In this document: piece by piece, positions 1-11,698 of the stretch
Numbering within the stretch: position 1 is the first letter of the stretch
Layout of the letters: each line of letters starts with the position of its first letter
From: Hyphomonas pacifica
GTDB taxonomy: Bacteria > Pseudomonadota > Alphaproteobacteria > Caulobacterales > Hyphomonadaceae
Assembly (NCBI RefSeq): GCF_000682675.1
Contig: NZ_AWFA01000007.1
Span: 1 to 64,000 of the forward strand
Reading direction: 5' to 3'
Length of the DNA stretch: 64,000 nt
Translations under genes and position numbers: made by a program
Notes under the pieces: generated by a model
Told to the model about the DNA's origin: nothing
Seen by the model: only the letters and a program-made list of their open reading frames with translations
Databases searched by the model: none

Positions 1-1707
1 ATGAATGAGGGAGCCAAAGGGCTCAGGTCAGCCGCAATCGATGAGCACTTTCCTGAATTTGCCGATGGTTCACCAGAATCGCCAAACATAACTCAGGCAA
101 AGGAGTATATCGCTGAGCGCATCACGGAACTCCCAGCCGATTTGTTCGAAATGCGAGAAGGACCTTTGCCAACGGGTATAGCTTCGTCCATCACCAAATT
201 ACTGCCTGATCCGATATATATTCCTGCCGTAAAGAACATCAATGACGACCTTAAGACATCGCAATCGACTTCTTTTGGGCGTCTACTTGGTCTGTTGCTG
301 GAAGACATGGCTCCGGATCTAGATAACATCAATAACGCGTTAAGTGATTTGAGGGCGTTTTTTAATCGCGTTGAGGTGGAGGGTGAGATTGAGGACAATC
401 GCCATCAGAAGGTAAAGGACCTTGAATCTGATATTGAAGCTCGGCTTGCGGAGAATTTTCCAGCAGTCAAAGTCGAACTCGAAGTGCCGCCGCCAGAGCT
501 CAAAGCTATTCTAAACTCAGCGCAGATATTCGTCGATGACGGTTCAAAAGACTCTATAGAGAATAAGGGTGATGGGATTAAACGCTCACTGACGTTCGCG
601 CTACTTCAATGCTATGTAAATCGCTTGTTTGGCGGGCCAGAGGCAGCAGGTGACGGTGTGGCGCCGCGTCCAAATTTATTCTTGTTTGAAGAACCAGAGC
701 TCTACCTCCATCCCAAATCGCAACGTATTCTCTTCGCAACTTTGGAAAAAATTTCTCGCCGTTTTCAGGTTGTGGTGACTACACATTCTCCGCTTTTCTT
801 CGCTCCTGGCATCACAGCTTCATTTGTTCGTATCTCGAAGGAGCGCGCGGACCCCAAACCAATTGGTGTAATTCATGAAGTAAATTTTGATCTCGATCCA
901 GCAAGTGCAGAAGCCTTCAGGCTTGCTAAATTCGAAAATGCTGATGCTGCCTTTTTCAGCCGCCGCGTTGTGCTGTTCGAGGGGGAATCCGATGATGCAT
1001 TCTTCAAGCACGTTTCAAAGACAATCGATGAGGAATGGGATTTTGACTCACAAAATATCGCTATGGTTCAGGTATCCGGAAAAGGGAACTTTGCAAAATT
1101 TCGCCGCTTTTTCGAAGCGTTCGGTATACAAGTCAAAATCGTTGCGGATCTGGATGCCTTTTTTGAAGGCTTCCAGCATTTGGGTGCAGATGGGGTGGAA
1201 GATATTCGCAATACGGCAATCCAAACCATTGACGACCGTGTGGCCGCCCTGAATATTCCGGCGGAGCCAAAAGCGAGGCAAATCAAGGCGAAAGTTAAAA
1301 ATGAATCATGGCAAACGCGTTATGCAGACGCCAAGGCAGCTATCCGATTAGCTCAAGAAAATGGAAATGTTCCGCCTGAGGCACTCGAAACTATAGATAG
1401 CCTATTCGTTTGGGAAGATGACATTGCACGTGGTGAAGTTTGCTTGATTGACGATGCGGCACGGGCGGCGCTGACTCCTTGTATAGATGCGTTGCGTGCG
1501 CAAGGCATTTGCGTGTTATCTAAAGGAGCAATTGAGGATTATTACCCCGATGAGGCGCCGCGTAATGGCCCAAAACCTGAACGTGCACTGGCAGCTATTC
1601 AACTAGTTACTACCGCCGAAGTAGCTCGAGCGTTAAGCGCCCCACTAGTCGAAGGCCGAGAACCGGAACTCGCGGAAATTTGCGCCGAATTGTTTGCTGA
1701 CAGATGA
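1..1707 (+). CDS. OLD-family ATP-dependent nuclease, 5' end cut by window edge
   Basis: Visible part is 568 residues. A Walker B acidic pair lies in FLFEEPELYLHP (about 228-238) and a switch histidine in TTHSPLF (about 260-265). A TOPRIM nuclease domain follows, with its glutamate in LFEGESDD (E327) and a D-x-D in VADLDAFF (D383, D385). No P-loop is seen, so the Walker A half must lie before the window and the ATG at base 1 is probably internal. ATPase plus TOPRIM is the OLD architecture, found in the phage P2 Old exclusion protein and in GajA of Gabija. The gene is visibly more AT-rich than its neighbours, as expected for acquired DNA. It ends 91 bases before an SbcD-like gene on the same strand. 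A role in phage or plasmid defence is inferred from the family; the substrate is unknown. Confidence 0.85.
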   Translation: MNEGAKGLRSAAIDEHFPEFADGSPESPNITQAKEYIAERITELPADLFEMREGPLPTGIASSITKLLPDPIYIPAVKNINDDLKTSQSTSFGRLLGLLLEDMAPDLDNINNALSDLRAFFNRVEVEGEIEDNRHQKVKDLESDIEARLAENFPAVKVELEVPPPELKAILNSAQIFVDDGSKDSIENKGDGIKRSLTFALLQCYVNRLFGGPEAAGDGVAPRPNLFLFEEPELYLHPKSQRILFATLEKISRRFQVVVTTHSPLFFAPGITASFVRISKERADPKPIGVIHEVNFDLDPASAEAFRLAKFENADAAFFSRRVVLFEGESDDAFFKHVSKTIDEEWDFDSQNIAMVQVSGKGNFAKFRRFFEAFGIQVKIVADLDAFFEGFQHLGADGVEDIRNTAIQTIDDRVAALNIPAEPKARQIKAKVKNESWQTRYADAKAAIRLAQENGNVPPEALETIDSLFVWEDDIARGEVCLIDDAARAALTPCIDALRAQGICVLSKGAIEDYYPDEAPRNGPKPERALAAIQLVTTAEVARALSAPLVEGREPELAEICAELFADR

Positions 1708-1798
1708 AAAACATTTGAGCGCCCAAACCATCGCAACGGTTAAGGCGACTTTATAACTTGTTGTTTCGCCAAACGTCGAAACCAGCTAAAGTAGCGCA

Positions 1799-2923
1799 AT
1801 GAATTTTCGTTTCATTCATACTGCTGACTGGCAGTTGGGTCGACCGTTCGCTCAATTCGAATCTGAATTGGCCGCACAGCTGGCTGACGCCAGGCTGGGC
1901 GTCATAGAACGGATTGCAAAGGTCGCCCAAGATGAGGATGTCAAACATGTCTTGGTCGCCGGTGATGTTTGGGACACAGCCTCGCCGTCCGACAAGCTCC
2001 TGCGCCAGCCTCTGGACCGGATGCGCACCACAGATGTTGCGAACTGGTGGCTCCTGCCGGGAAACCATGACCCCGCAGAACCGCATGGTCTTTGGGATCG
2101 ACTACATGCCATTGGTCTGCCGGATAATGTTCGCCCGCTAACGCAGGCGACGCCTGTCTCGCTGTCGGACAATGTCACCCTTCTGCCAGCACCCTGGATG
2201 TCAAAAGCGCCCGGAAGAGATCTGACAGCTGAATTCGGTTCTGTCAGTACGCCGCCGGACACGCTGAGAATCGGCCTCGCCCATGGCGGGACCTGCAGCT
2301 TTTTCGATCAGTCGCCGCAGTCAGCAGCCATCGCAGAAAACCGAGCAGCCACTGCGGGGCTTGACTACCTCGCTTTGGGTGATTGGCACGGCGTACAACA
2401 AGTCGATGAGCGGACTTGGTATGCCGGAACCCCTGAACCGGATCGCTTTCCTAACAACGAGCCCGGATCGGTACTTGTGGTGGAGCTTGCCAAATGCGAA
2501 CTGCCGATCGTGAAGCCGGTTAAAACTGCCCTCTATACTTGGACGCGGGATCGTCTGGATTGCCAAGACGGCGTTGATCCATGCGCGGAGGCGACAGAGC
2601 TCTTTGATGCGCATGGTCCTCGACATCGCCGCCTGAGCCGGCTTGAGCTGCATGGCGCGTTGCGCCTCGATACGAGAATGCGCTTCCTGAACTTTTTAGA
2701 ACAAGAGCGGCAGAGCCTCGCCCATCTCCGACTGAAGAGTTCGGGTCTTCTCAGCTTGGCCGACCCCGACGCGCTCGATGAAATCGATAGAGAAGGCACG
2801 CTGAGAGATACAGCGACAAACATCGTCGCAGTGATGAATGACGAGGATCGGCCCGAAGACGAAAGGGCAACCGCACGCCGTGCGCTGGATTATCTCGCAG
2901 CATTCGCAGCCGGGTCAGCGTGA
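1799..2923 (+). CDS. SbcD/Mre11-like DNA repair metallophosphoesterase
   Basis: A 374-residue calcineurin-like phosphoesterase of the Mre11/SbcD/YhaO type. Metal-binding motifs occur in family order: HTADW (H7, D10), GDVWD (55-59), GNHD (88-91), AHGG (162-165) and GDWHG (194-198). The family provides the Mn-dependent endo/exonuclease subunit that acts with an SMC-like ATPase on DNA ends and hairpins. The partner ATPase starts three bases after this stop, so the two are very probably co-translated. The last 150 residues are less conserved and probably hold the capping and ATPase-binding parts. Cytoplasmic. It could be a housekeeping repair nuclease or the nuclease of a defence operon; the OLD gene and the mobilisation genes nearby favour the latter, but that is inference. 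Confidence 0.9.
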   Translation: MNFRFIHTADWQLGRPFAQFESELAAQLADARLGVIERIAKVAQDEDVKHVLVAGDVWDTASPSDKLLRQPLDRMRTTDVANWWLLPGNHDPAEPHGLWDRLHAIGLPDNVRPLTQATPVSLSDNVTLLPAPWMSKAPGRDLTAEFGSVSTPPDTLRIGLAHGGTCSFFDQSPQSAAIAENRAATAGLDYLALGDWHGVQQVDERTWYAGTPEPDRFPNNEPGSVLVVELAKCELPIVKPVKTALYTWTRDRLDCQDGVDPCAEATELFDAHGPRHRRLSRLELHGALRLDTRMRFLNFLEQERQSLAHLRLKSSGLLSLADPDALDEIDREGTLRDTATNIVAVMNDEDRPEDERATARRALDYLAAFAAGSA

Positions 2924-2926
2924 ACC

Positions 2927-5515
2927 ATGAAACTTCGCGCGCTTCGTGTTCGGAATGTCGGCCCCTTCGGAGAGCAAGGCTGCGCGCTGGAAGGCCTCTC
3001 AGACGGCCTGAACGTCATTCGCGAACGAAATGAAGCGGGCAAATCCACGCTCTTCACCGCGTTGCAGATTGTGCTGTTCGAAAAGCACTCAAGCACAAAA
3101 TCGGCGCTCAAAGAATTTAGACATGACCGGGGCAGCGGCGCTCCGTTCATAGAAATTGACCTCGAAGTCGACACCAGAACCTATCGCATCTCAAAGCAGT
3201 ACCTTTCTGCAGCGTCAGCTGTGGTGACTGACGCTCTGACAAATGAACGCTTGTCGGAAAAACGGGATGCTGAAGACTGGATCGCTCAGCTGATCGGAGG
3301 CGACAAACCAGATGACGGCCCCTCAGGCATGCTCTGGATACGGCAAGGCGATCCCTACTTGCAGCCAAAACCGGAAGGCAGCGCAGGCGAGGCCCTGTTT
3401 TCTGTGCTCGAAGGCCAAGTCGATACGGTTATGGGCGGCCAGCGCGCCGCGAGGGTTCTGGAGCGTGCTGAAAAACGTCTCGCCGAAATCGTCAGTACAA
3501 AACAGATGAATCCAAAGGGCGCTTTCAAGGACGCTATTGGCCGTCTGGATGAACTAGAAGGAGAGAGGTCCGATTTTGCGGTCGCCGTCCAGCAATCCGA
3601 GGCTGATCGAGAGAGATTGCTCAGTGTCTTGAAAGAACGCGACGCCCTCACAAGCGAAGACGATGAAAAGTTTGCTAAAGACCTTGCCGAGGCCCGAAAA
3701 GAGCTGGAAGCCGCAGAAGGCGCTTCAGAGAAAATTCGCGGTCTTCAGTCTGAAGTCGGCGCCTGCGAAACGACGTTGAAAGCTGCGGAAAATGCACTAG
3801 AGCGGTATAGCTCGGATTTGGCGTCCGCAGAGAAACTGCGGGCATCGATTCAGGACAAACAATCCGCGATCGAAAGCATCACGGAGACGATCGAGGAGGG
3901 GGAAGCGCCCCTGGACGATCTTCGGCAACAAGCTGCGTCAGCTGAGACAGCCCTTAAGCAAGCCAGAAAAGACCACCAAGACGCCCTGTCGCGGGACAAG
4001 CGTCGCCGCGAGATTGCGCAGCGACGCTCGCTAACGAAAGCATTAGAGCGCGCCAAAGATCTCGCTTCGCAATTGAAGGCTGCTGAAAAAGAGGCTGGCG
4101 TTTCGCTACCCGATCTGTCCGACCTTGAAGACGCCAACCAGGACATTCTCACATTTGAAGCACAGGCGCGCGTGGCGAGGCCTGAGCTGACAGTGGAAAA
4201 ATCGAACGCACCCGTTCTACTAGACGGCGAGGCGATCGGCGATACGGGCTCTGTTAGGCTCTCGGGGAAAACGAAGCTCAATTATCAGGACCTTGAGCTT
4301 TTGATCGACACCCCAGATGTTCAAGGTGCGGAAGAAAAACTTGCTAAGGCGACAGAACGGCTTGAGAGCTTGTTGGAGTCTTGCGGCGCCAAAGACATTT
4401 CTGACGCACGGCGCCTGCATGAAGAACGCAATTCTGCACAACAATCCGTTGAACGGCTGAAGAATGATCTGAGTACGGTTGCGCCGAATGGCATCGCAAC
4501 GCTCGAAAATGAACTCGCGGCTCTGCCGGACGATGAAGAAGAGGATGACGAGCCTGGCGACCTTGATGCGCTCGCCCGTGCGAGCGAACTTTCGGAAGAA
4601 GAACTGACGCGCATCGTCGCTGAACGCGATACGGCTGCTGAAGGAATTCAAAAGCTTCGAAATCAGGTGACGATTCTCGAAACTCAGATCGAAGGACTCG
4701 AAAGCCAGCTGAGCGACTTGGACACCGTATTAGGCGCTGATGACAAACGCGAGGAGCGCAGGACTGAGTTGAGCGACGCTGTCGTGGAGGCGAGACGGCG
4801 ATGGCGAGAGGCGGAAGATCGCCTTGAAACTGCCGAACGTGATCGCCCATCGCTTGACGGGGCGCAAGCGCGAGTAAAACGACTCGAAGCCGCGGCACAA
4901 AATAGATCGGAGGATCGCCTGCGCTTATCGAAGGCGGAAGGCGAATTGCGTGGTCGGCTGGCGCAGGCCGGTCAAGAAGGGGCCTCGGACAAACTCGCTG
5001 CCGTGGAAGCGGAAATCACCAGATGGCAGGAGCGAATTTCGGCCTTTGAAGAAGAACGAGACGCACTCATCCTTCTCGTCGGCGAACTCTCCAAGGCGCG
5101 CGCGAGCCGGCGTACAAAATTCTTTGCTCCCGTGCGACAGGCAGTCGATCCATTGCTGTCCATGGTCCTTGGCAGTGCATCGCTCGCCTATGATGATCGT
5201 CTTGGGCCGGACGAACTCGAACGCAATGGCATGCGCGAAAAGCTGACCCGTCTTTCTGGCGGCACGCGCGAGCAGATCGCCGTCCTGACCCGCCTCGGCT
5301 TCGCACAGGTTATGGCAGGCAAAGATCGGCACATTCCCATCGTTCTGGACGACGCCCTCGTCTATTCAGACGATGAACGTATTCAGAAGCTTTTCGACGT
5401 CATTAATGTCGTCGCCGCAGACGTCCAGATCATCGCCTTTTCCTGTCGGCAAAAGACCTTCGAAGCGCTCGGTGGCAAAACAATTCACCCAGTAGACTTT
5501 CCGGTGCTGCGATGA
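2927..5515 (+). CDS. SbcC/Rad50-like SMC ATPase (YhaN type)
   Basis: An 862-residue ABC/SMC ATPase. The N-terminal P-loop reads NEAGKST (35-41), followed by charged, Glu/Lys/Ala-rich coiled coil at about 190-400 and 470-710. The C-terminal half-site has the signature LSGGTREQ (about 775) and Walker B/D-loop IVLDDALVYSDD (about 805). No CxxC zinc hook is visible at the apex. Instead residues about 415-460 form a short Gly/Leu/Val-rich segment that looks like a small beta domain. Rad50-type proteins clamp DNA and gate the Mre11-like nuclease, here the gene immediately upstream. The stop overlaps the start of a 142-residue gene (ATGA), so three proteins are probably made together. At 862 residues it is shorter than E. 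coli SbcC (about 1050). Confidence 0.88.
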   Translation: MKLRALRVRNVGPFGEQGCALEGLSDGLNVIRERNEAGKSTLFTALQIVLFEKHSSTKSALKEFRHDRGSGAPFIEIDLEVDTRTYRISKQYLSAASAVVTDALTNERLSEKRDAEDWIAQLIGGDKPDDGPSGMLWIRQGDPYLQPKPEGSAGEALFSVLEGQVDTVMGGQRAARVLERAEKRLAEIVSTKQMNPKGAFKDAIGRLDELEGERSDFAVAVQQSEADRERLLSVLKERDALTSEDDEKFAKDLAEARKELEAAEGASEKIRGLQSEVGACETTLKAAENALERYSSDLASAEKLRASIQDKQSAIESITETIEEGEAPLDDLRQQAASAETALKQARKDHQDALSRDKRRREIAQRRSLTKALERAKDLASQLKAAEKEAGVSLPDLSDLEDANQDILTFEAQARVARPELTVEKSNAPVLLDGEAIGDTGSVRLSGKTKLNYQDLELLIDTPDVQGAEEKLAKATERLESLLESCGAKDISDARRLHEERNSAQQSVERLKNDLSTVAPNGIATLENELAALPDDEEEDDEPGDLDALARASELSEEELTRIVAERDTAAEGIQKLRNQVTILETQIEGLESQLSDLDTVLGADDKREERRTELSDAVVEARRRWREAEDRLETAERDRPSLDGAQARVKRLEAAAQNRSEDRLRLSKAEGELRGRLAQAGQEGASDKLAAVEAEITRWQERISAFEEERDALILLVGELSKARASRRTKFFAPVRQAVDPLLSMVLGSASLAYDDRLGPDELERNGMREKLTRLSGGTREQIAVLTRLGFAQVMAGKDRHIPIVLDDALVYSDDERIQKLFDVINVVAADVQIIAFSCRQKTFEALGGKTIHPVDFPVLR

Positions 5516-5940
5516 ACCCGCTCAACTTCTTCAAGCGTCAGAAAAGCACTCCGGCTAAACGCACGATCTTCAACAGAGGCATTCAATTCGAGATTAGCGA
5601 AGGTGACGCCACGACCATTCGTATTGCCGATGTTGAACAGTCGATTGGAGGCGTTCGACAGCTGACACAAACTGGCGTCAGCGAAATGGTCGATCGAAAA
5701 CACGACCTCGATTATCAGTATGCGCTGTGCCAGCGGCTTATGGCCGAAGGCGACATCTTACCATTTCCTTTCGAGCGCGCAGTCATCCTGCTTCGAAAAG
5801 CCAAGAGGTTAGAGGACGAGCAGGCAATCTGCCGTTACGTTGCTGAATGGTGCAGGAATGCCGAGGAGAATTGGGACGGTCGATCCGCGAAGCATTGGTT
5901 GAGCCCGAAGCTTCAACGGATCGTAGCACGCCTGTCCTAA
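5512..5940 (+). CDS. Hypothetical protein coupled to SbcCD-like pair
   Basis: A 142-residue protein I do not recognise. It begins inside the stop of the SMC ATPase gene with an ATGA overlap, which argues that it is real and made in step with the nuclease complex. It is soluble, with no signal peptide or membrane segment. The first 75 residues are mixed and polar. The second half is helical, rich in Arg, Glu and Leu, and holds two cysteines (about residues 63 and 105) and several tryptophans. It could be an accessory or regulatory subunit of the nuclease-ATPase complex; only gene order supports this. It is the last gene of the operon: the next 438 bases are non-coding. Confidence 0.7.
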   Translation: MNPLNFFKRQKSTPAKRTIFNRGIQFEISEGDATTIRIADVEQSIGGVRQLTQTGVSEMVDRKHDLDYQYALCQRLMAEGDILPFPFERAVILLRKAKRLEDEQAICRYVAEWCRNAEENWDGRSAKHWLSPKLQRIVARLS

Positions 5941-6378
5941 GCCTGACGGTTTGTTTTCATTTTTCACGTGTGGCCGCTCACGGGACAGGACCCGCTTTTT
6001 GTCCACATTTCGATTCCGGGAACTTAACAGCGTCGTGATTGCTCCGTAGCCACAACGGCCAAAATGCTGGGCACTTTTTATGAAGATGTGAAGGTTCGCC
6101 AATGAGAAAACATGAGGTCCGCTTCTGCGTCAGCTTGTAGGCAGTAAATTGCAAATCTTTATGTCTGGTTTGAGGACAGAGCAGTCATTCGCGAAGCTAT
6201 GCTCAAACGGCAGGGAAGGGCCAAGCACAGTCACTCTGTCACTCGAAACTTTCGTGGATCAGATGAGCGATCGCAGCAGTGGATAAAATTTATTGTTGGC
6301 GACGCGTAGTGACAGGGCGACTAGCAACAAGCACTGAATTCACCCGTCACTCTCTCCTTGTCCGGGCATACGCCGTGT
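5941..6378. other. Non-coding stretch after the SbcCD-like operon
   Basis: I see no gene with coding character or a good ribosome-binding site on either strand. Open frames here are short, and the longer plus-strand frame from about 6279 runs antisense to the Xre gene. No strong terminator hairpin with a T-run was found. The stretch is AT-richer than the operon before it and may be a junction between separately acquired pieces. Confidence 0.5.
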
Positions 6379-6627
6379 CTATTTCTTTAGCCGGACACCA
6401 GCGCCGCCATCTATACACTCTTTGGGATCAAGGAAAACAACTCCCCCTTCTTCCAGTGCGCGACGAACAGCTGCGACATTGGCCTCCGTACTCGCTGACG
6501 GTCCGCGGTCACTCTCCATTCTACGTACCGTTGGCACTGATAGCTTCGCGACTTCCGCCAATTTCGGCTGGGTCCAGTCTAGAAGGGCTCGGGCAGCGCG
6601 TAGTTGAGCGGCGGTCAAATTAGGCAT
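6379..6627 (-). CDS. Small Xre-family HTH regulator
   Basis: An 82-residue protein starting MPNLTAAQLRAARALL. Almost all of it is one Cro/C1-type helix-turn-helix: TQPKLAEVAKLSVPTVRRME holds the two central helices, with the typical LRAARALLDWTQ lead-in. The end (GGVVFLDP) is the short beta segment usual in small antitoxin-like or phage-like repressors. The ATG at 6627 is preferred over a longer in-frame start because the domain begins right after it and the extension would run through the operator-like repeat at 6659-6681. It is transcribed away from a twin-arginine hypothetical gene and probably represses one or both genes. No partner toxin is recognisable. Confidence 0.82.
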   Translation of the reverse strand: MPNLTAAQLRAARALLDWTQPKLAEVAKLSVPTVRRMESDRGPSASTEANVAAVRRALEEGGVVFLDPKECIDGGAGVRLKK

Positions 6628-6716: not shown

Positions 6717-7205
6717 ATGTCCCGACGGCCTTGCGGCGCGGCGAATGCCAATCCATGCGCAAATTCACAGATTTCTCGCAGACAGCTCATCGCCGGTTCA
6801 GCTGCAGCTATCATTGCGCCAGACCTTCCTGCGCAGGCGGACCCGGCGGTTGGTGCTTGCATGTCCTGGTTATGCCTTGAAGCAGAATACTCGGTCCTCA
6901 CGAAACGCTGGCAGGAAATCGAGAGCCATCTACTCCGGCTAGGCTTTTGGTGTCATTCGTCCTCAGACCACCCTGCAAGTAATACTGAAGCAAGAGAATT
7001 GGAAGCGATCGATCGGCAGTTGGATGCCCTGGATGAGAAAAGACAAGAACTTCTCACCTGCCTTCCAGAAATACCGGCCGGCACCCTTCGTGGTATTGCC
7101 TTGAAATTGGACGTTCTCGCAAGCGTCATTCGACCGGGTGAGAACGAGGACGTGTGTAATCTTGTTATGAGCGTCGTATGCGATTTGAAGACGATTAAGA
7201 TGTGA
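6717..7205 (+). CDS. Hypothetical protein with twin-arginine-like signal
   Basis: A 162-residue protein from an ATG with AAAGGT six bases upstream; a GTG 21 bases earlier is less well placed. The N-terminus has a twin-arginine-like stretch, SRRQLIAGSAAAIIAPDLPA (about 21-40), followed by alanine/proline, suggesting Tat-dependent export. The remainder is a helical, Leu/Glu/Arg-rich domain with a heptad-like segment around ELEAIDRQLDALDEKRQELL and several cysteines. I do not recognise a family. It stands alone, divergent from the small Xre regulator, which may control it. Confidence 0.6.
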   Translation: MSRRPCGAANANPCANSQISRRQLIAGSAAAIIAPDLPAQADPAVGACMSWLCLEAEYSVLTKRWQEIESHLLRLGFWCHSSSDHPASNTEARELEAIDRQLDALDEKRQELLTCLPEIPAGTLRGIALKLDVLASVIRPGENEDVCNLVMSVVCDLKTIKM

Positions 7206-7299
7206 ATTCATTATTGGCATCGCGTAGGCTCTGGATCTTTAGGGAACAGCGTGCGTCGCGACGCGAAAAATCCCCGATACGGGTTGGATTCTGGCCGAC

Positions 7300-8091
7300 T
7301 CATCCTCCGAGTTCATCCAGCAGGTTCAGGAAGTCTCCAAGGTCTCCATCACTCATCGCGATCTCTGCGCGAATGAGCAGGCGAAGCCGGTTGGCCTGAT
7401 TTTTCAACCGCTGCTTCTCGGTCATTTCTCTCTCGGTCGCCGCACGGGCGCGACTCTCTTCGGCTTCGGCCAGGAATTTCAGGATTCGCGCCTCGATCTC
7501 CTCATTTTCCAGGCCTGCTTTGGCGAGCCGGGATTTGAGGTTGGTGAGCCCTTTGTCGATCAGCTCTTCGGTTTCATCGCGCAAGGTCGACCCCCGCTTT
7601 GGATTGGCCTGCATCTCCATGATTGCGGACAGCTGATCGCGCAGCTTTGGCAGGAACTCCGACCCGAGACTCGTCAGCGCATCCGATCTTGCTCTTGCTG
7701 GCAGGAGCGCCTTCCTCTCCTTGCCCGATCGCATCTCCACGAACGCCTCGACAATGAACTGACTGGCTTCCACCGCACGGGCCGAGTTGAGGAGCGTGGC
7801 AACCATCACGACGCCATGTTCGGTAAACACCCATGGCGGCGACCGTCTTCCACCCCATTGGCTGCTTGAGATCACATCCTGTGATTTCAAGTCATCGAAT
7901 TGCGCCTTCGTTAGCTGGAACGCCCATCCCTTTGGAAACCGCTCCAGGTGCCGCTTTACGGACTGATTGAGCACACGCGTTTCGACATCGAAAAACCTGG
8001 CGAGGTCTTGATCGAGCACCACCCGCGTACCCGTCACATCGACGATCTGCACGGGCGCACCATGAGGCACGGGTACAAGGTCTTTGCTCAT
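7300..8091 (-). CDS. ORF6N-domain DNA-binding protein
   Basis: About 263 residues. The N-terminal 110 match the ORF6N domain of phage and mobile-element proteins: RVVLDQDLARFFDVETRVLNQ, then KRHLERFPKGWAFQLT, and WVFTEHGVVMVATLLNSARA, the expected order of its conserved blocks. The C-terminal half is a charged coiled coil (about 150-250), probably for oligomerisation. ORF6N proteins are related to KilA-N/BRO proteins, common in prophages and integrative elements, with poorly known function. The ATG at 8091 is chosen over an in-frame TTG at 8151, because a near-perfect palindrome (8110-8130) lies between them and is more natural in a leader. Its neighbour is a conjugation-type relaxase gene reading the same way. 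Confidence 0.8.
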   Translation of the reverse strand: MSKDLVPVPHGAPVQIVDVTGTRVVLDQDLARFFDVETRVLNQSVKRHLERFPKGWAFQLTKAQFDDLKSQDVISSSQWGGRRSPPWVFTEHGVVMVATLLNSARAVEASQFIVEAFVEMRSGKERKALLPARARSDALTSLGSEFLPKLRDQLSAIMEMQANPKRGSTLRDETEELIDKGLTNLKSRLAKAGLENEEIEARILKFLAEAEESRARAATEREMTEKQRLKNQANRLRLLIRAEIAMSDGDLGDFLNLLDELGG

Positions 8092-8109
8092 GATTACGGC
8101 TTTCAACTT

Positions 8110-8130
8110 GAGGTCACAGATTGTGATCTC
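8110..8130. promoter_or_regulatory. Palindrome in leader of ORF6N gene
   Basis: Arms GAGGTCACA and TGTGATCTC flank GAT, complementary except for one G-T position. It sits 19-39 bases upstream of the ORF6N start and has the length and symmetry of a dimer operator. Autoregulation is plausible but not shown. Confidence 0.45.
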
Positions 8131-8151
8131 AAGATTCTGCAGGTTCGCCAA

Positions 8152-8478
8152 GGAGTTGTCGGGCTTCGCGGCAATAGATTGCGCGACCGGTCTTCAAGAC
8201 CGGTCCGGATCCTTGCGGTGATAGGAGCGACAATAGACTCCTCCCGTTCGACAATGCTGAAGACGAAGATGCCCTGCCAAGTGGGTAGGGTGTTCACACC
8301 CCATGCACCTTCGATGCTGACAGACAGCCGAGCGTCCCAGTCTCAAACACCCACAGCTAAAGGAAATCTCGTCCGGAAAAGCCGTGTACGGAAGGATCTG
8401 CTAGCGATTACGAAATTTTCGGCGAGCGGCATACGAGCCAATAACTACGAGCGGATGCGTCGAAGAAATACGTATACG
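8152..8478. other. Intergenic region between relaxase and ORF6N genes
   Basis: This 327-base stretch has no supported gene. It holds the perfect palindrome at 8185-8205, a short hairpin with arms AGGAG and CTCCT near 8227-8245, and a compact palindrome at 8288-8301 (GGGTGT-TC-ACACCC). The density of inverted repeats beside a relaxase gene makes part of an oriT possible, but no nick-site consensus was recognised. Confidence 0.4.
8185..8205. promoter_or_regulatory. Perfect 21-base palindrome
   Basis: Arms GACCGGTCTT and AAGACCGGTC flank a single C, perfectly complementary over 10 bases each side. It lies about 95 bases upstream of the ORF6N start, between that gene and the relaxase gene. With no T-run beside it, an operator or recombinase/nicking-related site is as likely as a terminator for the relaxase operon. 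Confidence 0.5.
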
Positions 8479-9570
8479 TCAGCGTTCGTGTTCAGTGTCA
8501 CGTTCGCCCGGTCTCTGACGTAGGCTGATCCGCAAGCCTTGCATGCTGGATGAAGTTCGCGACGCCTGCGCAATGGCGCTGATCATTTGCTGCACCGAGG
8601 GCAAGGCGCGGGCTGGCGATTGTGTGCGAGCTTCGTGACCTGGCATCGGGCCGTGGCGGGTGCGAGCGCCGATCTGCGCTTGCTGCTGGCGTGCTCTGGT
8701 GAGATCGAAGCCGAGCGTTCTGGCCTCTGCTTGCCAGGCCTGGAACAGTACGGCGCGCTCTCTCGGTCTTTTGGCCTGCCGTGTGCGCAGGGCTGCCAGT
8801 TCCATCCCCTTGGCCGTACGGTAGCCATAAGTGTCGGCCGCGCTTTCGATCGCCTGCCTGCGCTTCGAAAAGGCCCGTTCGATGTCGCGGGGGATCGCGG
8901 CAAGGCGGAAGCTCGTGCCATGGCGCTCGACGGCATGGCCATCGCGCTCGAGTCCATTGGCGAGGTGCGCGCGGTAGATGGCGCCGGCGTCCTTCTGGGC
9001 CTTGTAGAGATTGCGGCTGACGAGACTGCCCCAGCTCCCGTCACGTCGAGGCGCCAGATTGAAGATGAAAGCATGGGTGTGGAGCTGAGGGTCGAGATCA
9101 CGGCTTGTGTGGTGATGGAAGCGGGCAATCGTCAGGCCGGCGACCGGTTCGCGGATCGCGCCGCCCTTGCCACGCCGAGTGAATGCGTGATGGTCTTCGA
9201 GATGGGTGGTGGCAGCACGAACGGCCTGGCGGTGGGCGGCTTCGATCCTGACGCGTTCGGCAGGGGATGAAAGCGCCCACATGACCGAGACCGATTTCGG
9301 GGCCGAGAACGTCATGTCCCAACCGGGGGCGTGCGATTTTCCGATCTGGGTAAGGCGCGTGCTCGTTCTCGGATCGTGCCCGTTGAGAGCGGCTTCGAAA
9401 TCTGCCTTCGAGACGGGGCCTTCAAGCGCGAGCCGTTCAGCGCCTCTGCCGTCCCATTCCCCATCTGCTTCGGCTTCACCCTGGCCTGTATAGTATTCGT
9501 CCTCAGCCATATGCTTGAAATAGCTGACAGCGGCGGCAACGGACTTCCGGGCGGAGATCGATGCGACCAT
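8479..9570 (-). CDS. MobF-family conjugative relaxase (relaxase domain only)
   Basis: A 363-residue TrwC/TraI-type relaxase. It opens MVASISARKS, carries candidate catalytic tyrosines (Y26, Y27 in EYYTG) and the histidine metal site in RFHHHTSRDLDPQLHTHAF (H152-154, H164, H166). The enzyme nicks one oriT strand and stays bound to the 5' end for transfer. TrwC and TraI are about 970-1750 residues with a C-terminal SF1 helicase; here the protein ends soon after the relaxase fold, and no helicase motifs follow in any frame. The ATG overlaps the stop of the coupling-protein gene (TGATG), so it is co-translated. The end is Gln/Arg/Ser-rich and low in complexity. It could be a natural short form or a truncated gene. 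Confidence 0.9.
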   Translation of the reverse strand: MVASISARKSVAAAVSYFKHMAEDEYYTGQGEAEADGEWDGRGAERLALEGPVSKADFEAALNGHDPRTSTRLTQIGKSHAPGWDMTFSAPKSVSVMWALSSPAERVRIEAAHRQAVRAATTHLEDHHAFTRRGKGGAIREPVAGLTIARFHHHTSRDLDPQLHTHAFIFNLAPRRDGSWGSLVSRNLYKAQKDAGAIYRAHLANGLERDGHAVERHGTSFRLAAIPRDIERAFSKRRQAIESAADTYGYRTAKGMELAALRTRQAKRPRERAVLFQAWQAEARTLGFDLTRARQQQAQIGARTRHGPMPGHEARTQSPARALPSVQQMISAIAQASRTSSSMQGLRISLRQRPGERDTEHER

Positions 9571-11375
9571 CAGGTGTCGTGTTCCCGGGAGAATGAATTC
9601 CGGATGCGTTGGGCGACTTCCGGCGACAGGAGCGAGGTGGGGCCGGTTCCCGGCAAATCGGGCAGCGGCGCAATCTCTCGGGCAGGTCTTGTCGTCCAGT
9701 CGGCGAGCACACTGCCGGGGCGCACTTCGCTGAGTTGCGGATAAGGAAGGGTGACTTCGTAGGCATGCTCGCCCGGACCAATGAGGAGCGCGCGGACGCC
9801 TTGCTTGAATGCGCCCAGCCTGTCCGACAGTTCCGACGGTGTGATGACAGGGCGAACTTCCCGCTCCTTTGTCCAGCGTGTCGAAAATTGGCCGCCTGAT
9901 CGTGTCTCGCTCTTGCGGTAGAACTCGACGGTCTGCTGGCCGATCAACCGGCTCGTCGTTTCGGCGCTCTGCCCCAAGTTCATGCGGGTGATGATGTGCG
10001 TGCCGATCATGCCGATCCATGCATCGGCCTGGTCATGGCCGTACGTGTTGCGGATCTGGGAAAGGTCCTGCGCGCCGAGCACCACGCTGATGCCCTTGGA
10101 CCGGCCGACATCCAGCAGGGTCGAGAAATGGGGCAGGCGTTCGAGTTGAGGGAACTCGTCGAGGAAGAGCCAGGTACGCCGTGCGGGGCTTTCCTGCATG
10201 GCTGGCGAAGCCGCGTGAGAGGCGAGAAGACCAATGATGCCGGACAGCCAGGACTTGGTCAGCTGCGGAAAGCGTCCGTCATGCTGAAGCACGATTGGGT
10301 GGCAGGACGGATGGCGCAACCATTCGCGGACAGAGAAGGATCGCCCGTGCGAACTTTTCGGCCAAGCTTCGGCGAGGACGCTCACCACGTTCATATGAGC
10401 TTTGAAGGTCGAGATGATGCTTTGCGTGGTCTTGCTGCTTGGTTCTTTCAGGAACTGGATCGCTTCGGGGTGGTATCGTTCGGCAATACCGAGAAGCGCA
10501 TCCGCGTCGGCGACCACCAGTTTCCGGAGGTCTTTCCAACCCCAGCCACCTCCATGTCTGACCTGGAGTGAGATAATGCAGGCAGTCAGGATCTCGCGCG
10601 CTGCATCTGACCAGATACGGTCCGACCGGCTTTCCGGGATGAGCCGCGCCGCGAGCTCACGCGCTTCCTGAGGGGTCTGGCAGTCGGTTGCGATGTCCCA
10701 TTGCAGTGAGCGGGCATCATGCGGCGCAATGATATTGCCGATCCTGGGCAGCTTCGATGTCATGTCGCCTTTGACATCGAGCACCAGCACCTTGTCGCCG
10801 CGCTCAATGGCCTGAAGCATGAGGTGCAGCATGGCGGTGGTCTTGCCCGCGCCGGTACTGCCCCAGATGAGGAAGTGACGGCTCTCACGGTCGCGGCTGA
10901 TGGGAATGCCGGGCGGAAACTCAAGCCCGGATCCGGACCGGCGGCACTCGCGTCTTGACAGGGACTGGAGCGCTCGTCGTGCGGTTTTGTCCGCAAGGTG
11001 CTTCCGCCCGCGAATGACTTTGGGGGGTGGGCGGGCGGTCATCGTCTGACGGACAAAGCCGATCAGGGCGAGGAGTGATAGTCCCGTCAAAACCGCGACG
11101 GCATTGTGCCGGAGCATGAATTGCCCGGTCGTTCCATAGTGGTCGAGGATGCGTCGACATCTCGGCCAGTCAGCAGATCCGATAGGGTCTCCAATGAGTG
11201 AGGTGATCCGGGCTTTGCCGCATCTCGCCATGAACGAGCTGTCGTGGCGAGCGTAGACGTCCGCCTCGGTATAGGTGCCAGGTGGATATAATTCGAAACC
11301 GAGCTTGTAGGCTCCGGAAGCAGCTGCGCCACACAGGACGGCAAAGGTGAAGAGGATGGGCTTGAGGTGTCTCAT
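9570..11375 (-). CDS. Type IV coupling protein, VirD4/TraD family ATPase
   Basis: About 601 residues. Two membrane segments near the N-terminus (about 7-26 and 90-108) enclose a periplasmic loop. A cytoplasmic ATPase follows, with Walker A GSTGAGKT (172-179) and Walker B-like WLFLDEFPQLERL (about 400). The protein is a hexameric pump that brings the relaxase-DNA complex to a type IV secretion channel. It is preceded by a ribbon-helix-helix gene and overlaps the relaxase gene, a standard mobilisation order. No type IV secretion channel genes are in this window, so transfer would use a channel encoded elsewhere. The ATG at 11375 was chosen; a TTG five codons earlier (11390) would almost touch the upstream stop. 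Confidence 0.9.
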   Translation of the reverse strand: MRHLKPILFTFAVLCGAAASGAYKLGFELYPPGTYTEADVYARHDSSFMARCGKARITSLIGDPIGSADWPRCRRILDHYGTTGQFMLRHNAVAVLTGLSLLALIGFVRQTMTARPPPKVIRGRKHLADKTARRALQSLSRRECRRSGSGLEFPPGIPISRDRESRHFLIWGSTGAGKTTAMLHLMLQAIERGDKVLVLDVKGDMTSKLPRIGNIIAPHDARSLQWDIATDCQTPQEARELAARLIPESRSDRIWSDAAREILTACIISLQVRHGGGWGWKDLRKLVVADADALLGIAERYHPEAIQFLKEPSSKTTQSIISTFKAHMNVVSVLAEAWPKSSHGRSFSVREWLRHPSCHPIVLQHDGRFPQLTKSWLSGIIGLLASHAASPAMQESPARRTWLFLDEFPQLERLPHFSTLLDVGRSKGISVVLGAQDLSQIRNTYGHDQADAWIGMIGTHIITRMNLGQSAETTSRLIGQQTVEFYRKSETRSGGQFSTRWTKEREVRPVITPSELSDRLGAFKQGVRALLIGPGEHAYEVTLPYPQLSEVRPGSVLADWTTRPAREIAPLPDLPGTGPTSLLSPEVAQRIRNSFSREHDT

Positions 11376-11386
11376 GGAACGGGTCC

Positions 11387-11698
11387 TCAACCGGCGGTTC
11401 GACCGCTGAGGGCGAGGAGCAATTGTTCGAACATGGATTCAATGCGTCCAAGCGAGCCGGACTGCTTGTTGACTGTGGTCGAAGCTGCAGCAAGGTCCTG
11501 GGACAGGGCTGCAAGCCTTCGCTCGATCTTCAGGAGGCGTTCGGCCTGCGTGTACGGATCACCGTCTGTCAGGCCCGACAGGATGAGCTCTCGCGCGACG
11601 CCGGTCGGGGTTCCGGACATGCGGCGAGCCCGTACGGTCAGCTGTTTGATATCCGACTCGGCGAGACGGATCGAAAGTGGGCGTGTCTTGTCGGTCAT
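11387..11698 (-). CDS. Ribbon-helix-helix mobilisation accessory protein
   Basis: A 103-residue protein whose start ATG overlaps the stop of the HTH gene before it. The N-terminal 45 residues fit a ribbon-helix-helix DNA-binding fold: LSIRLAESDIKQLTVRARRMSG gives the strand and first helix, then ARELILSGL. The second half is a probable coiled coil (LLKIERRLAALSQDLAAASTTV) ending LLLALSGRTAG. Small proteins of this kind beside relaxase genes (MobC, TraY, MbeC types) bind oriT and help the relaxase nick. That role is inferred from position directly before the coupling-protein and relaxase genes. Confidence 0.75.
   Translation of the reverse strand: MTDKTRPLSIRLAESDIKQLTVRARRMSGTPTGVARELILSGLTDGDPYTQAERLLKIERRLAALSQDLAAASTTVNKQSGSLGRIESMFEQLLLALSGRTAG

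Follow-up and report, generated by a model that had tools for sequence, protein, structure and literature searches.

Genes at the contig start

The stretch analysed here (the window) comprises 64,000 nucleotides of the Hyphomonas pacifica genome and starts at base 1 of contig NZ_AWFA01000007.1 (C7), in a 3.42-Mb assembly of 93 contigs. Its first four genes lie on the same strand and code for an OLD-family nuclease, an Mre11-like protein, a Rad50-like ATPase and a protein of 142 residues (Table 1). All four open reading frames of the first-pass annotation were confirmed, together with the spacing it had described, a 3-base gap between the Mre11-like and Rad50-like genes and an ATGA overlap joining the latter to the 142-residue gene. 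These last three genes are called the trio below, and MR designates the Mre11-like and Rad50-like pair of this divergent family. The gap from the OLD gene to the Mre11-like gene is 91 bp. Scanning for promoters and terminators gave signals no better than chance.

Table 1. Features at the start of the window, with coordinates, strand and the evidence for each assignment
Feature	Position	Strand	Length (aa)	Evidence
OLD-family nuclease, 5' end missing	1-1707	+	568	Pfam PF20469, PF13175; PADLOC Old
Mre11/SbcD-like metallophosphoesterase, variant metal site	1799-2923	+	374	Pfam PF00149; motifs
Rad50/SbcC/YhaN-like ABC ATPase, no zinc hook	2927-5515	+	862	Pfam AAA_23, AAA_27; AF2; PDB
142-aa protein, third gene of the trio	5512-5940	+	142	L032 homologue; substitution pattern
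TrwC (MOBF) relaxase, near the trio	8479-10020	-		Pfam PF08751, 264.7 bits
TrwB/TraD-type conjugative coupling protein	9570-11390	-		Pfam PF10412, 254 bits; overlaps the called relaxase frame

Both domains that identify an OLD nuclease are recognized above the Pfam cut-off in the first gene product, namely an ABC ATPase domain (AAA_15, PF13175, 64 bits) and an OLD-type TOPRIM domain (OLD-like_TOPRIM, PF20469, 65.6 bits), and the PADLOC Old family matches at 5.2e-65. The AAA_15 match covers profile positions 196-372 only; the gene product retains the TOPRIM domain and the C-terminal half of the ATPase domain, whose N-terminal half is missing because contig C7 begins inside the gene. The 5' part with the Walker A motif therefore lies beyond the contig end, and no clear separate N-terminal OLD half was found on any other contig of the genome. 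The GajB UvrD-like helicase that would define Gabija does not follow the OLD gene in the window, where the trio comes next. The G+C content is about 48% over the OLD gene and 55-59% over the trio, a contrast that fits separate origins.

The same three genes occur in the same order on JANQMY010000071.1 (L032), a contig of an alphaproteobacterial MAG, with amino acid identities to the window of 79% (Mre11-like), 70% (Rad50-like) and 68% (142-residue protein), and with the same ATGA overlap. DNA homology between the two loci spans exactly positions 1805-5924 of the window and ends there, leaving out the OLD gene. Judged by this homology, the trio is a transferable unit. The L032 trio has a serine recombinase upstream and no OLD neighbour, so OLD is not an obligate partner, and we rejected it as a fixed fourth member. 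The TrwC relaxase and the TrwB/TraD-type coupling protein that follow the trio in the window also place it in a mobile-element context.

The called TrwC frame, with 513 aa, looks short for a relaxase-helicase, and the mobilisation module at 8479-11390 may be truncated. An ORF at 7300-8151, located between trio and relaxase, resembles an ORF6N-domain phage-type antirepressor. Adjoining the conjugation genes, the segment 12201-14901 holds a 342-aa nucleotidyltransferase-like ORF and then a 450-aa ORF in which SHIHYDH fits the MBL-type HxHxDH motif; the two may form a further conflict or defence pair.

The 142-residue protein has no match in Pfam, NCBIfam or PADLOC, no credible match in PHROGs or the PDB, and none among plasmids or viral sequences; its AF2 model (pLDDT 48) displays C-terminal helices only. 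Its gene differs from the L032 homologue at 34, 25 and 85 sites of codon positions 1, 2 and 3, and this preponderance of third-position differences marks a real coding sequence for a selected protein. The family is very rare, with two members (window and L032) after a scan of genome contigs and searches of the class and order; among 385 genomes of the class, L032 held the one other homologue. Weak matches in L029-L031 and L132 look like chance, with no comparable small gene there. The co-occurrence of this family with the MR pair, for which the first-pass annotation suggested a search, is thus seen in L032, if in two members only, and the protein reaches beyond close strains, since L032 is a distant alphaproteobacterium. 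No other MR pair examined has the gene, which therefore cannot define the system; with two members, a role as defining subunit was rejected. Its product probably serves the MR complex of a particular lineage as a subunit or regulator.

The absence of the N-terminal part of OLD from the assembly would be explained if the OLD gene and the trio had lost their function and were left over at the margin of an element in decay, but the gene is cut just where the contig begins, and the trio is intact with divergence biased to third positions, which makes decay highly improbable.

The MR pair and related systems

The Mre11-like protein matches the Metallophos family (PF00149) at 35.9 bits, above the Pfam cut-off, and the NCBIfam model sbcd at 49.2 bits, under the cut-off of 77.65 that would mark a canonical member. 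Its metal-site residues are D10, Q12, D56, N89, H162, D195 and H197. While D56, N89, H162 and H197 are kept, Q12 and D195 stand where canonical Mre11 has histidines that act as metal ligands. The window protein thus carries D-x-Q and G-D-W-H instead of the canonical motifs D-x-H and G-H-x-H; in a set of 38 Mre11-like proteins, D-x-Q is the majority form and GDWH replaces GHxH almost throughout. This variant metal site could imply an altered or lost nuclease function.

The Rad50-like protein matches AAA_23 and AAA_27 above the Pfam cut-offs, the latter (PF13514) with 30.9 bits against a gathering score of 22 and over residues 1-68 only, in keeping with a YhaN-like ATPase. Its AF2 model (mean pLDDT 81) displays a Rad50-type ABC head with a long coiled coil, and Foldseek returned Rad50 of the MRN complex as the best PDB match (7zr1, E 3e-19). 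At the apex of the coiled coil, six short strands (residues ~418-461) are modelled in place of the zinc hook, and the CxxC hook motif is found in none of 40 Rad50-like family members. The missing hook, the altered metal motifs and the sbcd score under the cut-off together assign MR to a divergent SbcCD/YhaN-like family distinct from canonical SbcCD; the label SbcCD given at first was therefore too close.

With SbcCD and Mre11-Rad50, MR shares the combination of a metallophosphoesterase and a Rad50-fold ABC ATPase in a single operon. It differs in lacking the hook, in its apical beta domain, in its low sbcd score and in the replacement of two of seven metal-ligand positions (Q for H in most members, and D for the other H in nearly all). 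The arrangement of an SbcD-like nuclease beside a YhaN-like ATPase also recalls pairs of the YhaO-YhaN type, a likeness that rests on the AAA_27 match; MR is set apart from these by its occurrence on mobile elements, adjoining defence genes.

Lamassu (LmuABC), reviewed in PMC10586767, similarly combines a Rad50-like ATPase, a nuclease and a small protein, is accessory and occurs in a defence context. Here, however, the ATPase has 862 aa as against ~650, the nuclease is Mre11-like and LmuA is missing: PADLOC detected nothing like LmuA among the products of the trio and the OLD gene, and the operon has no further gene. The 142-residue protein matches no PADLOC family and is encoded last, not in the middle as the small LmuC-type component is. 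MR, alone or with the 142-residue protein, could still provide defence by itself, in the manner of Lamassu or Wadjet, with OLD a separate system of the same island. The retention of the trio without OLD in L032, the weak similarity of the Rad50-like protein to LmuB (PADLOC, 4.8e-14) and the space for a separate promoter in the gap behind OLD agree with an independent role. Its sole effector would have to be the Mre11-like nuclease, though, the 142-residue gene is missing at all other MR loci, and stand-alone MR pairs often lie amid metabolic genes, so that we consider a self-contained system unlikely.

Distribution and partners of MR

Searches for MR detected it in 8 of 61 relatives, 6 of 42 congeners, 17 of 385 genomes of the class (~4% of Alphaproteobacteria) and 16 of 398 genomes of the phylum. 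Such patchy presence among relatives shows MR and the trio to be accessory and not a core locus conserved in most relatives; a core repair locus was rejected for this reason. Among plasmids, tblastn with the Rad50-like query matched 117 records; none reached 60% identity, and most of the matches were partial. The H. pacifica genome itself holds a second MR pair on contig C28 (L021, G000:C28:2191-9489), with a nuclease 40% identical to that of the window and in convergent orientation to a SIR2-HerA defence pair; a small Phd/YefM-type antitoxin-like ORF (C28 9515-9718) lies just upstream of its Mre11-like gene. A phage origin of MR was considered and set aside, with one closer match on a viral contig (40% identity, L146) and the others weaker.

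Several unrelated families of known or candidate defence genes adjoin MR. OLD/GajA-family genes do so at five loci (window, L020, L067, L095 and L090), one of which, L090, has a full Gabija (A and B) including GajB. OLD, which the first-pass annotation had suggested as a neighbour or partner of the trio, is one of several exchangeable partners of MR. HerA occurs beside MR together with SIR2 (C28 copy, L025) or with DUF4297 (L026, L086). This grouping recalls archaeal HerA-NurA with Mre11-Rad50, except that HerA here pairs with SIR2 or DUF4297 and not with NurA. Other neighbours are PDC-S06 (L066, and L085 by a homologous gene), PDC-S37/Hhe (L082, L084, L101, L144), operons of multi-ubiquitin, E2, ThiF-JAB and DUF6527 proteins (L016, L018), and a RecB-like/helicase fusion with a methyltransferase (L088). 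Each of the six MR loci that could be evaluated in the genus adjoins a defence system, of four kinds in all: OLD in the window and L020, SIR2-HerA on C28, ubiquitin-like operons in L016 and L018, and PDC-S37 in L101. MR and partner are mostly co-directional with gaps of 2-131 bp; the exceptions are convergent (C28), on the opposite strand (L101), 394 bp apart (L025) or separated by an opposite-strand gene (L090).

Some of these loci show further particulars. The PDC-S37/Hhe family lies directly upstream of MR in L082 and L084 as against directly downstream in L144, where a Hhe-like protein of 1939 aa (793-6612) belongs to a proteobacterium outside the class. MR is directly downstream of the ubiquitin-like operons in two congeners (L016 3880-8004; L018 9103-16635), and the operon of L018 begins with a UvrD-PDDEXK helicase-nuclease. 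In Vitreoscilla (L093 9234-10379), a second metallophosphoesterase gene comes right after the Rad50-like gene.

The first-pass annotation had proposed to look for enrichment beside defence genes. With PADLOC at 1e-20, 138 MR-neighbour genes include five Old/GajA and four HerA matches. For 135 control genes, taken far from MR in the same genomes, neither is among the 25 families listed of 27; these controls matched mainly kinase (PD-T4-6), mad3 and MkoA-type families. Genes around MR were called by a simple codon-position rule, the large PDC-S37 proteins were omitted from the neighbour scan because of their size, and plasmid loci were hand-picked from match lists before their neighbours were seen.

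Within one tight clade (L020, L085 and L066), the ATPases are 82-88% identical, yet the partners differ: L020 carries OLD where L085 and L066 carry PDC-S06. DNA homology between L020 and L085 covers 6868-10657 and ends within the MR pair (6862-10709), while that between L066 and L085, one on a chromosome and the other on a plasmid, extends through the shared PDC-S06 over 6.3 kb at 85% identity. Identity between the OLD proteins of L020 and L067 is as low as ~25%. The MR tree of 39 rows, with good support for 27 of 36 inner branches, requires a minimum of 15 changes of partner type. MR is a module with exchangeable partners.

Recognised defence neighbours are lacking at 22 of the 39 tree rows and at 11 of 12 additional loci sampled across the phylum. 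Stand-alone pairs among ordinary genes are thus common, as would be expected if MR were an accessory DNA-repair or plasmid-maintenance exonuclease, substituting for SbcCD on mobile elements, with its defence neighbours as hitch-hiking cargo. TrwC/TrwB, VirD4, TrbE or a DUF3363 relaxase beside or near MR agree with this, and the H. pacifica genome has no other evident SbcC-like ATPase once both MR copies and the proteins matching SMC, RecN and RecF in size are set aside. Such a role is less easily reconciled with the recurrence, across unrelated lineages, of a small set of defence families placed tightly beside MR in the same direction, with the joint homology of MR and PDC-S06 across chromosome and plasmid, and with the many congeners, the majority, that have no MR. 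We regard a repair or maintenance role as possible, although on the doubtful side.

Proposed role of MR

The position of MR beside unrelated anti-phage systems suggests that it serves immunity and not ordinary repair, as a DNA-end sensor or processor common to these systems. We favour, at a probability of roughly 55%, a reading of the trio as a variant of a mobile hookless MR module that would act as a DNA-end sensing and processing accessory recruited by defence systems. The earlier proposal of an anti-phage or anti-plasmid module is in part sustained, as the trio is transferable, is not core and belongs to a family repeatedly found beside defence genes. In such a module, the Rad50-like ATPase and the Mre11-like nuclease would assemble into a complex. 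This complex would bind incoming phage or plasmid DNA at its ends or at abnormal structures, and would nick or trim them. The processed end would then be handed to, or would license, the adjoining effector: OLD in the window, and elsewhere Gabija, SIR2- or DUF4297-HerA, PDC-S06 or PDC-S37/Hhe. MR would be an exchangeable accessory and not a dedicated system.

Gabija and HerA-DUF4297 have been described as functioning without MR, which counts against this role. Since defence genes concentrate on mobile elements, some of the adjacency may moreover be hitch-hiking. An association of MR with defence partners was not found in the searchable literature; an earlier description of MR pairs in the ABC-ATPase classification or Lamassu structure papers is possible. 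Experiments have demonstrated a comparable recurrent acquisition by unrelated immune systems for a two-gene nuclease-protease module (PMC12799240), although the proteins there are different, an MBL-fold nuclease and a trypsin-like protease.

More tentatively, and with the odds against it, hookless MR pairs may constitute a general plug-in of immunity, a mobile DNA-end sensor and processor common to systems of unrelated mechanism (OLD/Gabija, HerA with SIR2 or DUF4297, PDC-S06, PDC-S37/Hhe and ubiquitin-like operons). It would supply or gate the DNA signal by which the swapped effector is switched on, with the 142-residue protein as one adaptor. If so, one repair-type machine would be a common accessory of bacterial immunity, a parallel to Lamassu, for which a derivation from Rad50-Mre11 has been proposed, and to the recurrently acquired nuclease-protease pairs. 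Immune genes as yet unknown could then be found by searching next to MR pairs, and plasmid genes annotated only as 'DNA repair exonuclease' or 'AAA family ATPase' would gain a hypothesis for their function.
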